Assembly (NCBI RefSeq): GCF_030815955.1 | Contig: NZ_JAUSXK010000001.1 | Coordinates: 744,001 to 808,000 of the forward strand | Length of the DNA stretch: 64,000 bases | Source: Microbacterium murale | GTDB taxonomy: Bacteria; Actinomycetota; Actinomycetes; Actinomycetales; Microbacteriaceae | Direction of reading: 5' to 3' | Part shown: positions 37,883 to 50,700 of the stretch, one piece after another | How positions within the stretch are numbered: the stretch's first letter is position 1 | How the letters are laid out: each line of letters starts with the position of its first letter | Translations under genes and position numbers: made by a program | Notes under the pieces: model-generated | What the model was told of the DNA's origin: nothing | What the model saw: the letters and a program-made list of their open reading frames with translations, nothing else | The model's database searches: none

Positions 37883-39484
37883 ATGTCATTGCAGACCACC
37901 CACGCATCGGTCACCCTCGACCGCCTCACCTTCACCTGGCCGGACGGTCAGACCGCTCTCGACGGCGTCACCGGCTCGTTCGGCACCGGCCGCACCGGCC
38001 TGGTCGGCCGCAACGGCTCAGGCAAATCCACGCTGCTGCGCCTCATCGCCGGAGAACTCGCGCCGACGTCCGGCACGATCCACACCACCGGAGACGTCGC
38101 CTACCTTCCCCAGCGACTGACGCTCGACGTCGAACGCCGCGTCGTCGAGCTGCTCGGGGCCGCAGAGGCGCTGGATGCGGTCCGCGCCATCGCAGCGGGC
38201 GACGTCGATCCTGCACATTTCGACGCCGTCGGCGACGACTGGGACATCGAGGCGCGCGCCGAGGTGTCGCTGGCGGAGGCGGGTCTCGATCCGTCGTTCC
38301 TCGAGCGCAGCGTCGGCGAACTGTCCGGAGGGGAGGCGGTGCTCGTCGCGATCGCCGGCATCCGCCTCCGACGCGCACCGATCACGCTCCTCGACGAGCC
38401 GACCAACAATCTCGACCGCGAAGCCAGGGGGCGCCTCGCCGACATGGTGCGCTCCTGGAAGGGCACGCTCGTCGTGGTGAGCCACGACGTGTCGCTGCTC
38501 GAGTTGATGGACGACACTGCCGAGTTGTACGCCCACACGCTGAGCGTGTTCGGCGGACCGTACTCGGAGTGGCGAGCGTGGCTGGATACCGAGCAGGATG
38601 CGGCGCGCCAGGCAGAACGCGACGCCAGGCAGTCATTCAAGAAGGAGAAGCGACAGCGCATCGAGGCCGAGACCAAGCTGGCGGGCCGCGCACGCATGGC
38701 GAACAAGGCCTACGTCGAGAAGCGCGTGCCGAAGATCATCGCCAACGGCCGGAAGATGGAGGCGCAGGTGTCTGCCGGCAGGCTGCGCACCGAGGTCGCC
38801 GAGAAGGAGCGCGAGGCGCGAGCCGCGCTCGATGAGGCCGGACGGCGGGTACGCGGCGACGCCTCGGTGAAGATCGAGCTGCCGGATCCGGAGGTCTCCA
38901 GCTCGCGCCGCATCGCCACGATCGGCGACCAGGAGCGGTCCTGGGTCATCCAGGGGCCGGAGCGCGTCGCGCTGATCGGCCGCAACGGCGTCGGCAAGAC
39001 GACACTGCTGCAGCGGCTGGTGGACGGCGACACGGACGGCACGATCACGGCGACCGCGCACACCGATCGCATCGGCTACCTGCCGCAGCGCATCGACGGG
39101 CTCGATGAATCGCGCTCAGTGCTGGAGAACATCGCGGAGGCCGCGCCCACGATCCCGGAGAAAGAGCTGCGCAACCGCCTTGCACGGTTCCTCATCCGCG
39201 GTGACACGACAGATCGTCCGGTGGGCACGTTGTCCGGCGGCGAGCGCTTCCGCGTCGCACTGGCGAAGCTGCTGCTCGCCGACCCCGCCCCGCACCTCGT
39301 GGTACTGGACGAGCCGACGAACAACCTCGACCTCGACACGGTCGATCAGGTCGTCGAGGCGCTGCGCGCCTACCGCGGCGCGGTGCTCATCGTCAGTCAC
39401 GATGATGCGTTCCTGGAGCGACTCGATCTGGATCTGACCCTTGAGATCGATGCGGAGGGTCGGATGCAGGAGTCCACCGATTGA
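37883..39484 (+). CDS. ABC-F family ATPase (ribosome-associated, antibiotic-resistance type)
   Basis: A 533-residue protein with two ABC domains and no membrane segment. Domain 1 has GRNGSGKST, LSGGEAVLVAIA and LLDEPTNNLD; domain 2 has GRNGVGKTT, LSGGERFRVALA and VLDEPTNNLD. The linker (residues about 245-330) is highly charged, as in ABC-F ribosome-probing proteins. ABC-F proteins free stalled ribosomes or displace antibiotics; this length fits the actinobacterial resistance-type group. The ATG at 37883 follows GGGAGA; an upstream ATG lies inside the leader stem. Which drug, if any, is not evident. Confidence 0.92.
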   Translation: MSLQTTHASVTLDRLTFTWPDGQTALDGVTGSFGTGRTGLVGRNGSGKSTLLRLIAGELAPTSGTIHTTGDVAYLPQRLTLDVERRVVELLGAAEALDAVRAIAAGDVDPAHFDAVGDDWDIEARAEVSLAEAGLDPSFLERSVGELSGGEAVLVAIAGIRLRRAPITLLDEPTNNLDREARGRLADMVRSWKGTLVVVSHDVSLLELMDDTAELYAHTLSVFGGPYSEWRAWLDTEQDAARQAERDARQSFKKEKRQRIEAETKLAGRARMANKAYVEKRVPKIIANGRKMEAQVSAGRLRTEVAEKEREARAALDEAGRRVRGDASVKIELPDPEVSSSRRIATIGDQERSWVIQGPERVALIGRNGVGKTTLLQRLVDGDTDGTITATAHTDRIGYLPQRIDGLDESRSVLENIAEAAPTIPEKELRNRLARFLIRGDTTDRPVGTLSGGERFRVALAKLLLADPAPHLVVLDEPTNNLDLDTVDQVVEALRAYRGAVLIVSHDDAFLERLDLDLTLEIDAEGRMQESTD

Positions 39485-39495
39485 CGCCGTGCGCT

Positions 39496-40746
39496 CTAGT
39501 CGAGGAGCGTCAACCACCAGGGAAGCGCACCGATCGGCACAACAGTGAGCGTGCCGTCGGCGCCGAGGATGAGGAGCTGGTTCGCGGACCAGGCCTCAGG
39601 GGCGGAGGAGATGACAGCCGTCCCGCCCTCGGCGCCGGTGAGAGCGCGCACCGCGTCGTCCTGCATCTCACTCGACGCCATGATCTCGCCGGTCGCGGCA
39701 TCCACCACACTCAGCAGCACCCGCTCGGCGTTGATCGATTCCCGGTGCTGCACGAGCAGGAACCCGTACCCGATGCCGGCAGGTTCCGGGATGCTCTCCT
39801 CTTCGAAGAACTGCTCCTCATCGAAGAACTTCCCGGTGTCGAGAAGTGCGCCGAGTCTCGGCGCTGCGCCGCTCACGGGGAGGATGGTGGCATCCACGAA
39901 CTCCGCCAACCGTCGCGAGGTTTCTTCCGGACGAGTGACCTCCAGGGCGTCGCGCTGCACGGACTCGGCCACGGAGACGATCGAGTAGACCGTTCCGTCC
40001 TGTTCTGCCGCGACGCCGACCGTCTCGGTGAGGTGGCTGTCGTCGACCCAGGGGGACGCGCTCAATACGCCCTGCCATACCGACGCGAGAGCGTTGTCTG
40101 CAGGCGTCGCTCGGGTCTGACCGACGGGAATCTGCAGGATGTCGCCGGTGCTGCTCAGCACCATCACGGTGTTCGCGTCGGGGTCATACCCGTAGGCGCT
40201 CGCCGCGAGCACCACATCCTGCCCGAGACCGTCGATACCGGTCCCCTCCGCGTGCACCTCGCCAGACGCTGCGTCGAGGATCACCAGCCCATGATCCGTG
40301 CCGACGTACACCCACTGGGCGTCTCCGGCGAGCACGACCGCGTCGCCGATGAGATCATCATTGAGCTTTCTGTCCCACAGCTGTTCCCCGTCGTTCATCC
40401 GGATTGCGGCGATCCGCATCTGCAACGCCGATTCGAAGAGTCCTGGACGGGAGTTGTCGCTGTAGGTGACGACAGCGACCTCCTCGGCGCCCATGGAAAC
40501 GATCGCCGAGGTCGCAGAGACCTCGATGTCCCGCACGGATGGGGACCCGAAGAGGCCGACGAACAGAATCACCGCTCCGATGACGAACGGGGCGAGGAAG
40601 ATCAGTGCGAAGATCCGGCGATCCTTCTTCACAGACCGGCGATCCGGCCGCGGTCGCTCCGGCTCGGAGCCGAACGACACGCTCGACCCGTTGAGGATGT
40701 ACCCGGATGAAGGGGAGGCACCGCTCCCGCTCGTCGTGATCTTCAT
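39496..40746 (-). CDS. PA2928-like single-pass membrane protein with beta-propeller-like repeats
   Basis: A 416-residue protein. A Lys/Arg-rich cytoplasmic start leads to one helix (IFALIFLAPFVIGAVILFVGLFG, residues about 46-68), then an extracytoplasmic domain with recurrent PQQ/WD-like blades (AIRMNDGEQLWDRKL, WVYVGTDHGLVILDAASGEV, VLSSTGDILQIP). The repeated 'value at, then DGEQLW/ASGEV' pattern indicates a propeller scaffold with no visible active site. It resembles proteins annotated PA2928. It is divergent from the CHAT operon but may be unrelated to it. Confidence 0.72.
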   Translation of the reverse strand: MKITTSGSGASPSSGYILNGSSVSFGSEPERPRPDRRSVKKDRRIFALIFLAPFVIGAVILFVGLFGSPSVRDIEVSATSAIVSMGAEEVAVVTYSDNSRPGLFESALQMRIAAIRMNDGEQLWDRKLNDDLIGDAVVLAGDAQWVYVGTDHGLVILDAASGEVHAEGTGIDGLGQDVVLAASAYGYDPDANTVMVLSSTGDILQIPVGQTRATPADNALASVWQGVLSASPWVDDSHLTETVGVAAEQDGTVYSIVSVAESVQRDALEVTRPEETSRRLAEFVDATILPVSGAAPRLGALLDTGKFFDEEQFFEEESIPEPAGIGYGFLLVQHRESINAERVLLSVVDAATGEIMASSEMQDDAVRALTGAEGGTAVISSAPEAWSANQLLILGADGTLTVVPIGALPWWLTLLD

Positions 40747-40829
40747 GGGCTGCTCCTTCTTTCTCGGTCAGGATCGCACACCCTCATCCCTCCCGATCAC
40801 GGGTTGCGCCACCCGTCTCCGCCCCTGGC

Positions 40830-40835
40830 TAAAGT
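40830..40835 (+). promoter_or_regulatory. -10 box TAAAGT of the CHAT operon
   Basis: TAAAGT fits TAnnnT and ends 8 nt before the ATG at 40844, with no ribosome-binding site between. The likely start is therefore 40844, well upstream of the GTG at 41001. Confidence 0.5.
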
Positions 40836-40843
40836 GGACGGAT

Positions 40844-42149
40844 ATGAGCCCGTCGACGAAGCTCACTCCAGCGACTGCAGCGCCCTCTGAACCGGGTGCG
40901 CGCCGAGCGCGCGCACTGGTGATCGAGGAGGCCTGGCGCACCTTGGGCGAGGGGGTCGCGCCGCTCAGCAACGGCACCGGCCGGCCGCTCGCCCAGCACG
41001 GTGAAGCTCATCCTCGACCCGCTCATCATCCGCCCGGTGCAGAACCCGCAGCTCGCCGGGTTCTCTCTCGCATCGGATGCTGCGGCAGAACTGACCCTCC
41101 GCATCGCATCCGCCCGTGACGATCTCGTGGCGACCGCCGCGTGGTTCCAGATCCTCAAGAGAACCAGGCGCGCGCTGCGCATCACCGAGGGCAACCCTCA
41201 GGAGAAGTACTTCCAGCGCTGTTTCGAGCTCGCCCGCACCCTCGGGGTCCCCGAACCCGCAACGGCGGAGGCGACGGCATCCGAGGTCGTGTCGGAGATC
41301 GCTCATGCCGGCGGCGACGCGATCATGACCCGCATCCGTGCGCTGCTGCAGGACCCCGTCGAGACAGAGCGCTTGCAATCGGCGCTAAGCCTGGCGTGGA
41401 AGACCCGTGCGTCGGTCCATGCCGGAGCAGACACGGCGCCTCAGGTCACCGCGGTACTCGACGACTGCGGAAGCGCGCGCACCCCAGAACTCGACGAACT
41501 CATCGACGCGCGCGCAGGCACCGCTGCGGCATCGCAGCTGGAATCCGCTGGAGCTGCGCGCACGCTCGGCCTCACGGCTCTCGATCAGCCGACGACCCCC
41601 GGACTCGGTGCCACGGCATCCAAGCGCACACTCCCCCGGCCGTTCGACCGGTCCGTCTTCGAACGACTGTTCGCCGCGCTCTCCGGTGGCGCCGCTCTCG
41701 ACAGCGCACGTGAAGCGGACGACGTCGTGGAGGACGAGATCGAACGGACGGCGAGCGCTTGGGAGCTCGCGGACGAACAGAGCCGCATCATCATGCTGCT
41801 GGGTGCCGAGGCGAGCCACGCGTTGGAGCCCACCGAGATTCTGCGTCCGACGAATGCGCATCGCCTGCTCAGCAGCAGATGGGAACGCGAGGCATACGTT
41901 CGACGCGTTCTGCGTCTGCCAGGAGAGCTGAGCGGCGTTCCAGAGCCGGTTCGAGACGACATCCGCACCGTCCGACAGGGCTATCTGCGCAGGCTATGGG
42001 TGCGGCTGCACGGTCGTGAACTGCGCGGCCAGTCCACGACGGGCGCCGAGCTGTGGGACACGCTCGATGGCGCCCTCCGCTCGGTCGTGATGGACCAGCG
42101 GCACCGCCTGAAGCTCGCGATCGGCCGCGACGTGGAGGGAGCCGCATGA
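40844..42149 (+). CDS. Uncharacterised protein, first gene of the CHAT operon; apparent +1 frame break in a G5 run
   Basis: From the leaderless ATG at 40844 the coding bias is good (STKLTPATAAPSEPG, ARALVIEEAWRTLGEG) until a G5 run at 40951-40955; after it the bias moves to another frame, which runs intact from GTG 41001 to TGA 42149 (382 codons). Removing one G gives a single 434-residue protein reading WRTLGEGSRRSATAPAG and then VKLILDPLIIRPVQNPQLAG. The 41001 GTG has no ribosome site. The protein is all-helical in look, Ala/Arg/Glu-rich, and matches no family I know. Its stop overlaps the next gene (ATGA). Either a sequencing indel, a mutation or slippage at the run explains it. Confidence 0.7.
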
Positions 42150-43216
42150 CCGTGTGGATCCGGATCGACGGCGACGCCGCGACCGTCTCCGACGTCGCCG
42201 AGCCGCGTCGCGGAGCGACGTTCGCGACGGCGATCGTCGAGGCGCACGGCGCGCTGCTCACCTGGGACGTCACCGCCGGGATGCGTTTCCCGGATGCTGA
42301 GATCCACAGCCCGATCGAGGCAGAAGGCTGGCTCGCTGACGTTTATGGTGACGGCGTCGCGGAGGCGGTGCGCGCCGGGAAGCAGGCAGAGCTGGCGCTG
42401 CCTGCCGACGCCGAGCTCGTCGACGCCGCACGTGCGCTCGCGCTCCTCACCTGGGCACATGCCTGGTGGCCGGCCGGCGTCTACACTCCTGCTGTCGATC
42501 CCGCCATCATCGCCGCCGAGATCGCCGTCGCCGCGCATGCGCTGGAACACGTTCTCGACGACCCGGATGCCGTGGAGCGCGCGCTCACGGGCGCCATCGA
42601 CGCTCCCTCTGCGCTGGCTTCGGCACCGGCGTCGCTGCGTGTCGAGGCAGGCGCCCTCGCGGACGCCATCGCCGACCTCGCCGACGACCACGGGGTCGAG
42701 CTGCAGCCCGCGACGCTCGACGCCCGCCCCGAGGATTGGGCGCTCGCGGCCAGCGGACCGAACATGCCGTCTCACGAGGGCACCGAGGTCGGCCACGGCT
42801 CGAGTCCGGTGCGCTGGGCCGACGTTCCCGCCCAGACGGTGGCAGCCGACAGCGACGCGCAATGGTCGCTGCGGAGCGTCGGCGGCGCTGCGCATCTGCA
42901 TCTCACTGTTGCCGCCGCGAGTGGTGCGAGCCGCGACTCGACACTGCGTGCGCGGTTCGGGCCGGAGGATCTCGATATCGACGTGCCGCTCGCTCTCACC
43001 GGCGCGGCGTTCACCGGTAGCGCAGAGGTCGCGGCATCCGTGGCTCTGCTCCCCCTCGATGACCGCACCCTGTGGGTGCGAGATCCGCTCGTCGCCGCAG
43101 TGCCGGGACCCGCGGAATCCGAAACGGATCGTGACCTGGTGCGGGAGTTCGCGGTCGCGAGATTGGATGATCCGTCGGCGAGTCTCGCCGAGCGCATCGC
43201 CGGTGCCCGCGTATGA
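42146..43216 (+). CDS. Uncharacterised protein, second gene of the CHAT operon
   Basis: A 356-residue soluble protein beginning VWIRIDGDAATVSDVAEPRRG. The middle third is very Ala-rich and helical (AARALALLTWAHAWWPAG, AHALEHVLDDPDAVERAL), the C-terminal third looks like beta-strands (LHLTVAAASGA, LRARFGPEDLDIDVPL). No catalytic motif or family is recognised. ATGA overlaps link it to both neighbours, so all four proteins are made together in similar amounts. By position it may be an adaptor or substrate of the CHAT protease; that is inference. Confidence 0.72.
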   Translation: MTVWIRIDGDAATVSDVAEPRRGATFATAIVEAHGALLTWDVTAGMRFPDAEIHSPIEAEGWLADVYGDGVAEAVRAGKQAELALPADAELVDAARALALLTWAHAWWPAGVYTPAVDPAIIAAEIAVAAHALEHVLDDPDAVERALTGAIDAPSALASAPASLRVEAGALADAIADLADDHGVELQPATLDARPEDWALAASGPNMPSHEGTEVGHGSSPVRWADVPAQTVAADSDAQWSLRSVGGAAHLHLTVAAASGASRDSTLRARFGPEDLDIDVPLALTGAAFTGSAEVAASVALLPLDDRTLWVRDPLVAAVPGPAESETDRDLVREFAVARLDDPSASLAERIAGARV

Positions 43217-44859
43217 CCGACGACGACCTTCGCGATGGTCCACGATCCGTGCGCGGTCGGGTGCCGACCAGTGAGGCGTGGATCCCGGTGCGGGATCGCA
43301 ACAACACCGCGGCGGATCTGCTGAACTCGGGAGACAACGCCGAGGCCGCTCGACTGCTGCAGGAGGCCATCGAGCTCACTGACGACAGCGACGATCCGGA
43401 GGCTCGGGACCTTCGCAGCCGCGCCCTGCTGAATCTCGCTGCCGCGCGCTCGTACGAGGCCGACCTCGCCGAGGCTCTCCGGCTCGCCGAGGAGTCGATT
43501 CGCACGGCATCCGGTGTGCTCGACGAGATCGGTGATGTGCGCGCGTCGCGCACCGTGCTCGTGAACGCGATGCTGTGCCGCGCGCAGGTGCTCGCGCAGA
43601 GCGATCGGCTCGAGGGCGCGCTCGCTCAAGCGGATGAAGCTGCGGCCGAGCTCGCCGCGCACGATGACATCCATCAGCCGGAGCTGCTCCACTTCACGAT
43701 GCATGACGCCCGCGCCGGCATCCTGATCATGCTCGGCCGGCTGGAAGACGCTGAGGCCGACGCACGACGTTCCCTCGATTTGGCTCTGCGCATCGATGCG
43801 ACGCTCACGGCAGGGCCGTACATGAATCTCGGCGCGATCGCGCAGCGCACCGGCGACCTGCATGCCGCACACGAGTTCATCGGGCTCGCCGCGGCAGCTC
43901 AGCAGAACGACGGCGATCTCATCACCCGCCAGTCGGCGATCGAGAACCGTGCACGCAACGCCATGCAGCTGAAGCGTCTCGACGAAGCCGCAGATCTGTT
44001 CCGCGAGGCCGCGGCGCTCGCGAAACAGGCGGGCCTGGTGACTCGTCTCGCGGCCTGCCGGATGGGCGTCGCAGCGGTGCATCTGGAGTCCGGCAACCCC
44101 GCGCTCTCCGCGAAGGTGATGCGGGAGCTGATCGCGGAGCTCGGCACCGATGGGGCGGCGGCTGAACGGCGCGAAGCGTACGGTTTCCTCGGCGACGCGG
44201 AGTCGAAACGGGGGAAGTTCGCGCTTGCGGACGAGGCCTATCGCACTGCCCGCGACCTCAGCCGCTCGGCTCACGAGCGCTGCCGCGTCGATCTGCGGCG
44301 CGCCGAGATGCAGGCGGAGTGGGCGAGCTTCACGCCGTTGCCGCGCAAGCGCATGGCTCGACTGCGCACGGGGCTCGAGATGGCGATCCCCGTGCTGCTG
44401 GCGACTGAGGCGCTGCGGGGTGGCTTCAGGCCGGGTCCGATCCGCGAGCGCTGGAGCCTGCAGGTCGCAGCCCCCGCGCGCGAGCTCGCGTTCCGGCTCG
44501 CTGTCACGCTCGGTGACGGGCAGGTGTTGTTCGAGCTGATCGAGAACGCCGCGGCTTCGGCGACTCTGCAGGCCGAGGCGATCGAGGCTCAGCTGCCGAG
44601 CGAGGATTCGGAGGCTGCCGCTGTGACGCCTGTCACCACGCTGTCCCCGGAGGACGATGTCGCGGCAGATGTCGAGCTTCCTGCCGCGGCATCCGGGTTC
44701 GTCGGCGCCATGTCCGCCTCATCACCGGTGCGATTCGCGCCGCCGCCACGCGTCGTGGCGATGCCCGGCGCCGAGCCTGCACTGGAGAAGTGGATCCGCA
44801 TCGCCGAAGCCGAGTACGGCGTGACCGTGCGCTCGGAGACGGTCGTCGCGTCGTGGTGA
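43213..44859 (+). CDS. Tetratricopeptide-repeat protein, third gene of the CHAT operon
   Basis: A 548-residue protein with at least six TPR-like helix pairs between residues about 28 and 380 (for example NTAADLLNSGDNAEAARLLQ, LLNLAAARSYEADLAEALRL, ARAGILIMLGRLEDAEADAR, ARNAMQLKRLDEAADLFREA, YGFLGDAESKRGKFALADEA). The C-terminal 150 residues are a different, less ordered region. TPR superhelices bind peptide partners and are the usual sensors or scaffolds of CHAT proteases. The stop overlaps the CHAT gene's GTG (GTGA at 44856-44859). Confidence 0.82.
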   Translation: MTDDDLRDGPRSVRGRVPTSEAWIPVRDRNNTAADLLNSGDNAEAARLLQEAIELTDDSDDPEARDLRSRALLNLAAARSYEADLAEALRLAEESIRTASGVLDEIGDVRASRTVLVNAMLCRAQVLAQSDRLEGALAQADEAAAELAAHDDIHQPELLHFTMHDARAGILIMLGRLEDAEADARRSLDLALRIDATLTAGPYMNLGAIAQRTGDLHAAHEFIGLAAAAQQNDGDLITRQSAIENRARNAMQLKRLDEAADLFREAAALAKQAGLVTRLAACRMGVAAVHLESGNPALSAKVMRELIAELGTDGAAAERREAYGFLGDAESKRGKFALADEAYRTARDLSRSAHERCRVDLRRAEMQAEWASFTPLPRKRMARLRTGLEMAIPVLLATEALRGGFRPGPIRERWSLQVAAPARELAFRLAVTLGDGQVLFELIENAAASATLQAEAIEAQLPSEDSEAAAVTPVTTLSPEDDVAADVELPAAASGFVGAMSASSPVRFAPPPRVVAMPGAEPALEKWIRIAEAEYGVTVRSETVVASW

Positions 44860-46202
44860 GAGGACTGACGCCGAAGAACTGGCGTGAAGCGAGGCACCTC
44901 GGCCCCATGGCCAGGAAGGTGCAGATCGACGGCTCCGCGGTGCTCATCGATCTGCCCGACGACGTGCAGCCGGTCGCTCGACTGCGGTACGTCGACGGTG
45001 AGGATCTGTTCGTCAACTGGATCTGGGATCACCAGCTCGACTCCCCACGGATGACGGCGATCGAACGGCACCTGGTCGCTCCGGCGCTCGAGGAGCTGTC
45101 ACGAGCGTTGCCGACGCCGTTGCCAGGGGAGACCGGGGAGCAGGCGCTGAAGCGGGCGCTGACGGGTGGGGTCATGCTCGATCTTGCCCGCGAGCAGCGC
45201 CTGGCCGAGCTGCTCACCTCGGCGCTGATCCCCGGGTGGCTCGGGGCCGAGCTGAACGCCCTCGAGATCGCGGGAAGGCGCCCGCACCTCCGTATTCAGC
45301 TGTCGCCGTCGACGGCCCAGCTTCCATGGGAGCTGATGAGCACGTCGGAGGGCGAACGCGGCATCGACATGGTCGACGCTTCGGTGCTGCTGCCGGCTTC
45401 GCTGCGAAATGATCCGGCGCGGGTCGTCTCGCCGTGGAACCCCACCGCGCCCGTCGCCACCGTGCTGGACCCCGCTGTCCCCGGTTTCGCCGCGGCGAGC
45501 GAGCTGGGCAGCGTTCTCGGCGCTGTCGGTGAGGATTCGCGCCTGGCAGGGATGGTGCGCGAGCTCGGCGACCGCGTGCGACCTGCCGTGAGCACGCCTG
45601 TGGACGTGTTCCGGCGGCGTGACATCGGGCGCCGTGAGTTGGCTGCGGCGGTCGAGGATGCGGGGCGGCTCCTGTACCTCGGTCATGTCACCTCGTCGAC
45701 GCACGCTCTGGATGCCAGAATGCATCTCTCAGATCGGGCGGATGCACCGGGTCTGACTGCTCCGATCGGTCCGCACCGGCCGTACTCGGCAGCGGACATC
45801 GCGCTGGGTGCACCGGGGCTCGAACCGCTGCGAGCCCCGAACCGGGTCGCGCTGATCGCGTGCGACTCCGGCAGTGACATGCGTTTCGCCGAGCCGACCG
45901 GGCTGGTCGCGGCTTTCACGTCGCGCGGTGCCGAGTACGTGACGGCGACCCGCTGGACGCTGCCCACCGAGGCGGGGCTGCGCCGTTTCGCTCCCGCGCT
46001 CGGTGATCGAGCCGAGGGGATGCTGGCCGAGACGATCATCGCCGTGAACGCCGCGCACGAGACACCCGATCCTGTCGCTGCGATGGGTCGCTGGCAGCGG
46101 GAGAAGCGCCGGCTCTGGACGCGGACCGGGGATCCGCGGCACTCCCCGATCATCTGGGGAACACTGGCGACGGCGTGGGCGCCTGCGCCTGTGTCGTTCT
46201 GA
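44856..46202 (+). CDS. CHAT-domain (caspase-like) cysteine protease, fourth gene of the operon
   Basis: A 448-residue protein with a C-terminal CHAT domain. The catalytic dyad is His277 in LLYLGHVTS and Cys336 in VALIACDSGSDMRF, each at the end of a hydrophobic strand as in TPR-CHAT/separase-like proteases. The upstream half carries the usual strand-rich pre-domain (HLRIQLSPSTAQLPWELM, then VATVLDP). The family includes the Craspase effector and other inducible proteases. GTG 44856 is inside the TPR gene's stop overlap. No self-processing site is recognised. Activation by its operon partners is inference. Confidence 0.85.
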   Translation: MRGLTPKNWREARHLGPMARKVQIDGSAVLIDLPDDVQPVARLRYVDGEDLFVNWIWDHQLDSPRMTAIERHLVAPALEELSRALPTPLPGETGEQALKRALTGGVMLDLAREQRLAELLTSALIPGWLGAELNALEIAGRRPHLRIQLSPSTAQLPWELMSTSEGERGIDMVDASVLLPASLRNDPARVVSPWNPTAPVATVLDPAVPGFAAASELGSVLGAVGEDSRLAGMVRELGDRVRPAVSTPVDVFRRRDIGRRELAAAVEDAGRLLYLGHVTSSTHALDARMHLSDRADAPGLTAPIGPHRPYSAADIALGAPGLEPLRAPNRVALIACDSGSDMRFAEPTGLVAAFTSRGAEYVTATRWTLPTEAGLRRFAPALGDRAEGMLAETIIAVNAAHETPDPVAAMGRWQREKRRLWTRTGDPRHSPIIWGTLATAWAPAPVSF

Positions 46203-46309
46203 ACCAGGTGAGTGGATCGCGTCTCACGGTCACATGTCGTCGTTCGTGCACGCATTCCGTGATCGGGAGGGCGCACGGAAACTCTAGGTTGAGCCAGGAG
46301 GAGGGTGTG

Positions 46310-46858
46310 ATGGCGAGCGGATGGCGGATACGACGGCTGGAGCGGTTCGCGATCGCGCGCGGCATGCAGTTCGCTGTCGGGCCTTCTGGAGAGCGGCGCG
46401 CAGCGAGCTTCTTCGGTCGATCGGAGTATCAGGATGCCGTCGCGTGGTTCGGCGCGCCCGGCCCGGACGGTTTCGAGGTCGCGCAGCACATCGAACGGAT
46501 CGACGTCGGCGGCTCGGAGAATGAGGAGATGAGGCGCCGCTGGACGTGGGCGGTGTTCACCCTGCGCCAGGCGGGCGGCAGTGCCGACACGACGGCGGCG
46601 GCGATCCGGCCGATGCTGCCGCACCGCTGGGGCGTCGAGGTCGTCGAGTCGGAGCTGTTCCTGATGACGACGCGGCCCACGTCTCTCACCTCCCCGCGGA
46701 TGCGGCGGATGCTGAGCGAGGTGCGGCGGGCACTGCATCCGGTTCTCGCTCAACCGATGCGCACCACGGCCGCAGCCGAGCGTGACCGCCGCGGCATCCG
46801 GCATGAGATCAACGCGTCAGATCGGCGAGCCACTCGTGACCGGGAAGCGTCCGTGTGA
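46310..46858 (+). CDS. Uncharacterised small protein after the CHAT gene
   Basis: A 182-residue protein, strongly basic at both ends (GWRIRRLERFAIARGMQ and RRALHPVLAQPMRTT). GAGGAGG lies 6 bases before the ATG. It starts 107 bp beyond the CHAT stop and so may have its own promoter. A pattern with W/F/R (EYQDAVAWFGAPGPDGFEVAQ, RRRWTWAVFTLRQAG) suggests a compact alpha/beta fold, but no family is recognised. Its last 50 bp overlap the convergent nucleotidyltransferase gene. Confidence 0.6.
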   Translation: MASGWRIRRLERFAIARGMQFAVGPSGERRAASFFGRSEYQDAVAWFGAPGPDGFEVAQHIERIDVGGSENEEMRRRWTWAVFTLRQAGGSADTTAAAIRPMLPHRWGVEVVESELFLMTTRPTSLTSPRMRRMLSEVRRALHPVLAQPMRTTAAAERDRRGIRHEINASDRRATRDREASV

Positions 46859-49144: not shown

Positions 49145-50380
49145 CTACTGCAGCTGGTCGCGGCGGCGTGTGAGGTTGGCGGTCTCTGCGGTGTTGCCCG
49201 CCAGTTCGATGGCTCTGTCATACGCGGCGACGGCATCGTGGCTGCGACCCAGCCTGCGCAGAAGGTCGGCGCGGGTCGCGTGGAATGCGTGATAGCCGTT
49301 CAATCCCGGTTCGAGCCGGTCGACGGTCGCAAGTGCCACTTCCGGCCCCTCGATCTCAGCCACCGCGATAGTCCTGTTGAGGCTGATGATCGGTGACGGG
49401 TCGATGTCGGCGAGCTGGTCGTAGAGAGCGAGAACCTGTGACCAGTCGGTGTCGCGGATGTCGCCGGCGGAGGTGTGCACGGCGCTGATCGCTGCGAGGA
49501 TCTGGTAGCGACCCGGTGCCACCCCGGCAGCCGCAGCGGCCAGTCGCTCGCGTATCAGCCGATGCCCCTCGGCGATCAGCCCTGCGTCCCAGGCCCCGCG
49601 GTCCTGCTGGTCGAGGGGAACCAGTTCGCCGTCTACCGAGATCCTGGCGGTGCGGCGCGCTTCAGTGAGGAGCATCAAAGCCAGTAACCCTGCGACCTCA
49701 CCATCCTCCGGCAGGAGGGCACGGACCAGGCGAGTGAGCCGGATCGCCTCGGCCGTCAGGTCGGCGCGCACCGGCCCGGTGTCGGGGCCGGTCGCCAGGT
49801 AGCCCTCGTTGAAGATCAGGAATAGCACGGCGAGGACACCACCGACGCGGCGCGGGAGATCCGCGGCAGACGGCACCCGATAGGGGATGCGAGCCGCCTT
49901 GATCTTGGCTTTCGCCCGGGTGATCCGCTGCCCCATGGTGCTCTCGGGGACAAGGAAGGCGCGGGCGATCTCCGGCATGGTCAGGCCGCCGATCATTCGC
50001 AGTGTCAGCGCCACCCGGGCCTCCATCGCCAACGCCGGATGACAGCAGACGAAGATCAACCGGAGCTCGTCGTCTTCGATGACACCGATCGACTCGTGTG
50101 GAGCGCTGTCATACATCATCTGAGCCTCCTGGTGCCTGTCGTCGCGCTTGTTCTCGCGCCGGATCCAGTCGATGGCCTTCCGGTTGGCGGTGGTGGTGAG
50201 CCAGGCGCCAGGATTGGGTGGCACGCCGTCAGCCGGCCACCGCGCGACCGCAGCTGCGAACGCCTCGGCCGCAGCCTCCTCTGCGAGGTCGAGATTGCCG
50301 AAGCGTCTGGTCAGGCTGGCGACCATTCGGGTCCATTCGTCACGGTGCGCCTGGACGATTGCGCCGTTGACGTCGCTCAC
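49145..50380 (-). CDS. ECF42-type RNA polymerase sigma factor (with DUF6596 extension)
   Basis: A 411-residue protein with sigma region 2 near the start (VASLTRRFGNLDLAEEAAAEAF, NPGAWLTTTANRKAIDWIRR), region 4 (LTMPEIARAFLVPESTMGQRITRAKAKIK) and the long C-terminal TPR-like/DUF6596 extension that defines the ECF42 group. These sigma factors are typically encoded beside a DGPF/YCII protein, as here, and lack an anti-sigma. Its start overlaps the DGPF gene by 4 bp. The signal it responds to is unknown. Confidence 0.93.
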   Translation of the reverse strand: MSDVNGAIVQAHRDEWTRMVASLTRRFGNLDLAEEAAAEAFAAAVARWPADGVPPNPGAWLTTTANRKAIDWIRRENKRDDRHQEAQMMYDSAPHESIGVIEDDELRLIFVCCHPALAMEARVALTLRMIGGLTMPEIARAFLVPESTMGQRITRAKAKIKAARIPYRVPSAADLPRRVGGVLAVLFLIFNEGYLATGPDTGPVRADLTAEAIRLTRLVRALLPEDGEVAGLLALMLLTEARRTARISVDGELVPLDQQDRGAWDAGLIAEGHRLIRERLAAAAAGVAPGRYQILAAISAVHTSAGDIRDTDWSQVLALYDQLADIDPSPIISLNRTIAVAEIEGPEVALATVDRLEPGLNGYHAFHATRADLLRRLGRSHDAVAAYDRAIELAGNTAETANLTRRRDQLQ

Positions 50381-50700
50381 GTAAACGGTCGCACCTCGAT
50401 CTTGCGGTCGCAGACCTTCGAGGCTTCGGCGGCGAGGGCGAGAGCGACATCCAGATCAGGCGCCTCCCACACCCAGACTCCGGCGAGATACTCCTTCGAC
50501 TCCAGGAACGGCCCGTCGCTGATCATCGGGTTCTCACCCCGGTTGTCGATGACAGTGGCCGCCGTTGTGTCCGCAAGTCCTCCAGCGAAGACCCAGTAAC
50601 CCTCGGCGATCAGTCGTTCGTTGAAGACGCTGATCGCAGGCCGTCTGTCCGTGCTGCCGGAATTGCTCTTGTCATCGATCACGGAAACGAGGTATTGCAT
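50377..50700 (-). CDS. DGPF/YCII-domain protein, partner of the ECF42 sigma factor
   Basis: A 107-residue ferredoxin-like fold protein with the hallmark SDGPFLESKEYLAGVWVWEA. DGPF proteins accompany ECF42 sigma factors in actinobacteria, and a role in signalling or small-molecule binding is suspected but not established. It is upstream of the sigma gene on the minus strand with a 4-bp overlap. Confidence 0.92.
   Translation of the reverse strand: MQYLVSVIDDKSNSGSTDRRPAISVFNERLIAEGYWVFAGGLADTTAATVIDNRGENPMISDGPFLESKEYLAGVWVWEAPDLDVALALAAEASKVCDRKIEVRPFT

Follow-up and report, generated by a model that had tools for sequence, protein, structure and literature searches.

A conserved four-gene CHAT-protease operon of actinobacteria, probably a membrane-linked signalling system

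What is the role of a CHAT caspase-like protease encoded together with a tetratricopeptide repeat (TPR) protein and two unrecognised partners? The question is raised by a locus of Microbacterium murale, analysed here in a window of 64,000 nucleotides (G000, contig C1, positions 744001-808000; the genome is a single contig of 4.11 Mb, and positions below are those of the window unless a contig or locus is named). Discussion of bacterial caspase-like proteases has centred on CRISPR and conflict systems, and the first-pass annotation of this DNA had proposed a translationally coupled four-gene operon, perhaps for a stress- or phage-triggered effector by analogy with Craspase, the TPR-CHAT protease of CRISPR type III-E. 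Our analysis suggests that the operon is probably an undescribed membrane-linked signalling protease, because its genomic position and a shared DNA control site link it to genes for membrane proteins and lipoproteins. That it encodes an envelope-coupled, co-regulated CHAT-protease signalling complex is our leading reading, and we give it an even chance of being correct.

The operon lies on the forward strand. Gene 1 is present as a 5' part (40844-41119) and a 3' part (41001-42149, 382 amino acids), followed by gene 2 (42146-43216, 356 amino acids), gene 3 encoding the TPR protein (43213-44859, 548 amino acids) and gene 4 encoding the CHAT protease (44856-46202, 448 amino acids). The stop-start overlaps ATGA at 42146, ATGA at 43213 and GTGA at 44856 were confirmed and genes 2 to 4 are intact; gene 1, in contrast to the first-pass annotation, is not a single open reading frame (ORF) in the window. 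The GTG start of the CHAT gene is consistent with the N-termini of its relatives.

A total of 98 loci, comprising the window, 80 loci found via gene-1 homology and 17 found via CHAT homology, were used for the analysis of linkage. The 80 loci, all with actinobacterial names, are the best of 178 relatives from a gene-1 scan with 26 homologues. Carriers of the system include Rhodococcus jostii or R. opacus strains, with relatives in L087 and L099. Iterated profiles identified all four genes in 87 of the 98 loci, window included. Because 80 loci were selected by gene 1, the CHAT-chosen loci constitute the fairer test, and among these 13 of 17 have all four genes, with a contig end truncating a further one (L113). 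The four-base overlap (-4) recurs at the successive junctions (63/96, 49/90 and 67/85). Chance linkage is excluded, because all four genes occur together in so many loci and the overlap is recurrent; the linkage on which the first-pass operon rested extends well beyond the window. Of the 11 incomplete loci, L030, L039, L063, L083, L095 and L113 reach contig ends, L035 and L036 have genes 1 and 2 without genes 3 and 4, L106 lacks genes 1 and 2, and L118 and L119 are rearranged. Four pairs of loci with identical CHAT C-termini are counted twice (L023/L107, L025/L108, L026/L105 and L070/L071).

Comparison of 12 pairs gave ratios of nonsynonymous to synonymous substitution (dN/dS) of 0.10-0.41 for all four genes, with CHAT lowest in 9 of the 12; in the two pairs that include the window, synonymous sites have diverged strongly (pS up to 0.59) and gene 1 is represented by its 3' ORF only. 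Judged by these ratios, all four genes look to be under purifying selection, including the first two, for which the first-pass annotation had named a lack of coding selection as a ground for rejecting the operon. Mean identity in a 16-locus panel is 0.51 for CHAT, 0.48 for gene 1, 0.37 for gene 2 and 0.32 for the TPR protein, the most divergent part. TPR and CHAT form a single ORF in five loci (L077, L085, L088, L094 and L134), which supports their physical association. Given the intact catalytic dyad, the conserved coupling, the two unrecognised partners and these fusions, the regulated proteolytic complex envisaged by the first-pass annotation appears likely.

Several loci depart from the common arrangement. 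Two TPR genes stand between gene 2 and CHAT in the Streptomyces loci L031, L048 and L051. L106 (genome G289) has lost genes 1 and 2 and the start of the TPR gene, has kept c2 (described below) and CHAT, and is a decayed copy. In L118 (G230), CHAT precedes genes 1 and 2, and the unit adjoins a 1447-amino-acid FtsK/SpoIIIE-FHA ATPase and a divergent TPR gene. An nSTAND1 NTPase with WD40 repeats (PF20703, 423 bits) lies at L134:16604-19273, near the fused TPR-CHAT system of a Streptomyces megaplasmid.

Analysis of the encoded proteins supported the TPR and CHAT assignments of the first-pass annotation, both with Pfam scores over the cut-off. Gene 4 matches PF12770 with 35.8 bits (cut-off 24), indicating a CHAT fold by profile, and His277 and Cys336 are invariant in 32 of 32 aligned sequences. 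Gene 3 matches TPR_12 with 46 bits (5.5e-12) and TPR_2 with 44 bits (1.3e-11). Among 8000 scored candidates, homologues numbered 143 for CHAT, 59 for gene 2 and 446 (E<=1e-3) for gene 1. Genes 1 and 2 are indeed unrecognised: together with a downstream frame, ORF5, they gave no match over the cut-off in Pfam or NCBIfam, none in PADLOC and only chance-level best matches in PHROGs, and a sequence search of the PDB found no relative of genes 1 and 2. The structure of gene 2, predicted with high confidence (predicted local distance difference test, pLDDT, 94.3), pairs an N-terminal alpha/beta region with a beta-sandwich at the C-terminus (213-324). No PDB chain matched this model at Foldseek E<=1e-3 and VIA-align gave Z <=6.4, and no structural relationship is therefore claimed.

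Gene 1 belongs to a family rich in conserved arginine, with 17 of 55 invariant columns being Arg (57 sequences, hand count). Such a set would suit an acidic partner, a nucleotide or a lipid head group, which is offered as a guess. In the window, the frame of ATG 40844 stops at 41119 and the frame reaching 42149 opens at 41001. The 5' part can be aligned with intact relatives up to a conserved GRPLA motif, and the break falls ahead of the conserved core. Because the relatives (about 430 amino acids) read uninterrupted through the stretch broken in the window, either a frame change or an error of assembly must have interrupted this copy of gene 1.

The divergent membrane gene, the common control element and the unlinked partners of the operon, which point to the cell envelope, had been overlooked in the first-pass annotation. 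The immediate upstream neighbour of gene 1 is transcribed divergently in 80 of 97 loci (L113 has no gene 1; L106 was anchored on its TPR gene), and in 76 of 97 it contains a strongly hydrophobic 19-mer, compared with 126 of 367 among genes that lie over six places away. Partners within 3.5 kb were counted in 110 loci, duplicates included. Three families, here called c0, c2 and c3, account for most of this envelope signal near the operon: c0 in 70, c2 in 44 and c3 in 39 loci, with c2 and c3 together in none. In the window, c2 occupies 39496-40746 on the reverse strand. It matches NCBIfam NF041516, the PA2928 family, with 147.3 bits (cut-off 70), and PQQ_2 weakly (17 bits, below the cut-off); hydropathy and charge predict one N-terminal hydrophobic span with a propeller-like domain outside. 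Relatives of c2 stand divergently beside gene 1 in Microbacterium, Streptomyces, Saccharothrix, Glycomyces and others. The c3 proteins are LpqH-type lipoproteins of the Mycobacterium 19 kDa family, PF05481; two members score 85 and 108 bits, the latter from a locus of genus g92 (below). The c0 protein is a predicted two-span membrane protein with beta-domains, distantly like DUF3592 (below the cut-off).

A different order was found in genus g92, which we take to be Mycobacterium from the synteny of neighbouring genes (uvrA, infC-rpmI-rplT). In 9 of 9 loci of this genus the lipoprotein, TPR, CHAT, gene 1 and gene 2 follow in order on one strand, and c0 lies on the opposite strand in 8 of 9, with some low scores (36-204 bits). 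One Mycobacterium-like locus carries a VapBC-like pair, recognised by eye, between CHAT and gene 1 (L140:7086-7737, reversed orientation). In L119 (Microbacteriaceae), a lipoprotein of the c3 family (123 bits) lies between gene 2 and CHAT.

Between c2 and gene 1 lie 97 bases that contain the element CTCCCGATCACGGGTT (40790-40805) with a palindromic core, CCCG-ATCA-CGGG, at 40792-40803. Alignment of the Microbacterium c2-gene 1 intergenic regions revealed CTCCCGATCACGG to be constant in 8 of 8. The sequence TAAAGT (40830-40835, forward strand), just 5' of ATG 40844, may be the -10-like element of a leaderless-type promoter; aligned relatives have TATAGG at a comparable place. The 16-mer occurs in the whole genome as one exact copy, one copy with one mismatch and five with two mismatches, and the reversed control gave 0. 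The one-mismatch copy lies directly 5' of a 139-amino-acid gene (L148:2715-3134) of a further family, c85, which adjoins gene 1 in other genomes (L084, L085, L117 and L134). Among the two-mismatch copies, one precedes ORF5; the other four, three of them within called genes and the fourth in a stretch without gene calls, are taken as chance. The copy before ORF5 (46254-46269, GTGATCGGGAG) faces this frame (46310-46858, forward strand), with TAnnnT 15 bases further. ORF5, the possible fifth gene of the first-pass annotation, may be co-regulated; no homologue was found in the other 97 loci, so it is not conserved with the operon.

Comparison of 295 Microbacterium genomes, the one studied here included, revealed a CHAT gene of the operon type in 18 (weak in G307, rearranged in G230). 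Across the family such a CHAT gene was found in 3 of 120 genomes (own included; G116 weak), and across the phylum gene 1 was found in 11 of 396 (own included). Strong c85 matches occur in 11 of the 295 Microbacterium genomes, all among the 18 CHAT-positive ones and in most cases at a distance from the operon (G307 has a twelfth, weak match), and strong c2 matches in 10, of which 9 are CHAT-positive. The element was found upstream of c85 in 10 of 11 cases by mismatch count and in the eleventh (G367) by a strict pattern. This pattern, GTGATCGGKAG-N13..17-TAnnnT, gave 24 matches in 10 system-bearing and 2 system-free genomes, and the control gave 0 in the 12; observed spacers were 13-15 bases. 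It misses the copy facing c2 in the window, because GATCCT replaces TAnnnT at the expected distance. Its targets are c85 in 10 of 10 system-bearing genomes, a substrate-binding and VWA lipoprotein in 9 of 10 (one member scored 65 bits with SBP_bac_11 and 40 bits with VWA), c0 in 2, the window genome among them, and ORF5; two further matches are unassigned, one being the sole match in the system-free G106. The c0 gene of the window genome, at about C1:4.10 Mb and far from the operon, scores 160 bits with a profile of c0 genes from other genera (E-values are for a small protein set), an assignment independent of position. At L191:4623-7476, the substrate-binding and VWA lipoprotein is closely followed by a 334-amino-acid gene. 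An activator or repressor that overlaps the -35 region would suit the position of the element, and the TAnnnT box makes an alternative sigma factor less likely. A dedicated common element suggests inducible control.

The leading reading can be put as a model. Gene 1, gene 2, TPR and CHAT products would form one cytosolic complex in matched amounts, in which CHAT may be kept inactive and switched on via the TPR protein, as in Craspase. The complex would serve a membrane input module, c0, perhaps aided by the soluble c85, whose outside-facing part could be the membrane-anchored propeller c2 or the LpqH-type lipoprotein. Because they share one element, the divergent c2/operon promoter, c85, c0 (two genomes) and the substrate-binding and VWA lipoprotein would constitute a small envelope regulon. 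Envelope disturbance would free the protease to cleave a single specific target, which might be the regulon's own regulator or a membrane partner.

A number of observations weigh against this model. The families c0, c2 and c3 are all absent within 3.5 kb in 18 of 110 loci; the c2-like genes of L055 and L103 are downstream and not divergent; and G193 retains c2 without the operon. Since the choice between c2 and c3 largely tracks taxonomy, their exclusivity is partly inheritance. Strong c85 is missing in 7 and strong c2 in 9 of the 18 CHAT-positive Microbacterium genomes, and the Fisher p values for co-occurrence (1e-15 and 1e-11) ignore relatedness. The pattern precedes c0 in only 2 of 10 system-bearing genomes, and scanning the stretches upstream of c85 with mismatches allowed also gave three extra unrelated matches, which show the background. 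Kinship of c85 with c0 is weak: the window-genome c85 scores 23.5 bits with the c0 profile, but three other members score only 8-15 bits. The control element was studied in one genus, Microbacterium; outside it, CCCG-N4-CGGG occurs near gene 1 in 6 of 75 loci with about 3 expected.

Other explanations were also considered. If the envelope neighbours and common elements were incidental, the operon would encode a free-standing soluble complex with an unrelated role, which the 18 loci lacking c0, c2 and the lipoprotein nearby would fit; we hold this to be quite improbable, as neither the unlinked, co-regulated genes c85 and c0 nor the co-occurrence of c85 was detected by means of position in the window genome. 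A standing role in envelope maintenance, in which the complex would act on envelope proteins in normally growing cells, by processing or regulating them, and have no alarm function, is unlikely but deserves more weight. It is consistent with purifying selection, with the lipoprotein at the head of the gene group in Mycobacterium-like loci and with the frequency of gene 1 in two genera: 97 of 148 genomes in g92 and 64 of 78 in g93, which we infer to be Nocardia, with a few matches partial. It fits poorly with the 277 of 295 Microbacterium genomes that gave no CHAT match and with the dedicated element, which would suggest inducible control.

Comparable, and thus also modest, weight is given to a conflict system, anti-phage or inter-bacterial, in which the outside part or the TPR protein senses attack and CHAT kills or disables the infected cell. 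The unit is patchy in Microbacterium, with CHAT in 18 of 295 genomes. Gene 1 is carried by six plasmid records, five of them Streptomyces megaplasmids. The TPR protein is the most divergent part, and decayed copies occur (gene 1 of the window, L106 without genes 1 and 2, G193 with c2 only). The window unit is flanked by an ABC-F gene (37883-39484) and an Lhr helicase gene (from 53266), and this interval is a possible insertion site. Among 12 Microbacterium genomes tested, G123 and G305 hold the unit there, G126 is without a close ABC-F orthologue, G193 has c2 alone between the two genes, and in the remaining eight, system-free genomes the matched stretches of ABC-F and Lhr are 65-2244 bp apart, as expected of a cassette that is present or absent at one site. 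A defence role keeps some plausibility from the gain and loss of the unit as a cassette in Microbacterium and from its decay there, and it is weakened by the frequency of gene 1 in two genera and by the regulon. The phage trigger of the first-pass annotation found no support in this frequency, nor in the phage record search, in which no record carries a copy of gene 1. The genes conserved beside the operon encode envelope proteins, and a mobile defence cassette would not normally be expected to have unlinked members under common control. PADLOC 2.0 returned 0 families at E<=1 for the five proteins of genes 1 to 4 and ORF5 (gene 1 as its 3' ORF), and the PADLOC matches of the flanking ABC-F and Lhr look like generic ATPase and helicase similarity.

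In the window, the interval between ABC-F and Lhr holds the CHAT unit and about seven more genes. Between the operon and Lhr, 49145-50700 on the reverse strand holds a gene for an extracytoplasmic function (ECF)-type sigma factor with DUF6596 (Sigma70_r2/r4), beside a YCII-domain gene; neighbour clustering found no relatives of it in the flanks of other loci.

The envelope-coupled reading, if correct, would mean that a caspase-like protease appears coupled to the envelope in many actinobacteria, together with two conserved families unnamed in the libraries searched. LpqH-type lipoprotein paralogues and proteins of the PA2928 family would gain a possible role from it, and the control element with its gene list gives a concrete handle on trigger and output. 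The operon was not described in the titles and abstracts of open-licence PMC papers among the matches listed.

Comparison with known systems begins with Craspase, in which the TPR part switches on the protease, Csx29, to cleave an inhibitor of a sigma factor (PMC10028731). Both have TPR and CHAT with a His/Cys dyad, and the Craspase logic would also suit the control element of the operon. A single TPR-CHAT polypeptide, the Craspase trait, was looked for and rejected for the window, where the genes are separate; fusion is confined to the five other loci. That the operon is itself a Craspase-type effector is nearly refuted. No Cas effector, including Cas7-11/gRAMP, was matched among the operon and seven window neighbours, a scan that did not cover the rest of the genome, and the Lhr helicase only cross-matches Cas3/DinG-type helicase models. 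There is no CRISPR-like array in 30-56 kb of the window (one family, with three overlapping copies spaced by 18 bases, was all that appeared), and the longest ORF in 36-52 kb has 548 amino acids. Genes 1 and 2 have no PDB relative by sequence, and the CHAT profile found one chain at E<=0.1, an unrelated one. The operon also adds two conserved proteins, envelope partners and an actinobacterial spread. It is a CHAT/TPR protease system but not Craspase. A bolder proposal, that it is a CRISPR-free actinobacterial counterpart of Craspase wired to the envelope, in which caspase-like cleavage sets free the regulator of a small envelope regulon to which the sensors themselves belong, is speculative and on balance doubtful. 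Equally tentative is the signal route that it would imply, from outside lipoprotein or propeller to beta-domain membrane protein to the complex of genes 1 to 4, a circuit from sensor to caspase to transcription that would rest on two unnamed protein families and extend over unlinked loci.

Other systems share single features with the operon. The two-gene EACC1-caspase conflict system (Kaur et al. 2020, PMC7159879) likewise couples a caspase-superfamily peptidase to a membrane component. The operon differs in its constant four-gene core with genes 1 and 2, and no C-terminal domain swapping was noticed on CHAT; Pfam scans of genes 1 to 4, c0, c2 and c85 gave no EACC1 match, although the presence of that model in the Pfam copy was not checked. 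By score, c2 is a member of the PA2928 family, and the P. aeruginosa protein is named among genes possibly affecting polymyxin susceptibility (PMC4244539); the window member differs in being tied to a CHAT operon. The c3 proteins belong to the LpqH family (PF05481) but would be system-specific paralogues beside TPR and CHAT, not LpqH itself. Finally, envelope-stress proteolysis of the DegS/RseA type, mentioned in PMC10028731, differs from the operon in protease family, sensors and cleavage site; if the model proposed here holds, the two would share, by analogy only, a path from envelope input through proteolysis to a regulon.

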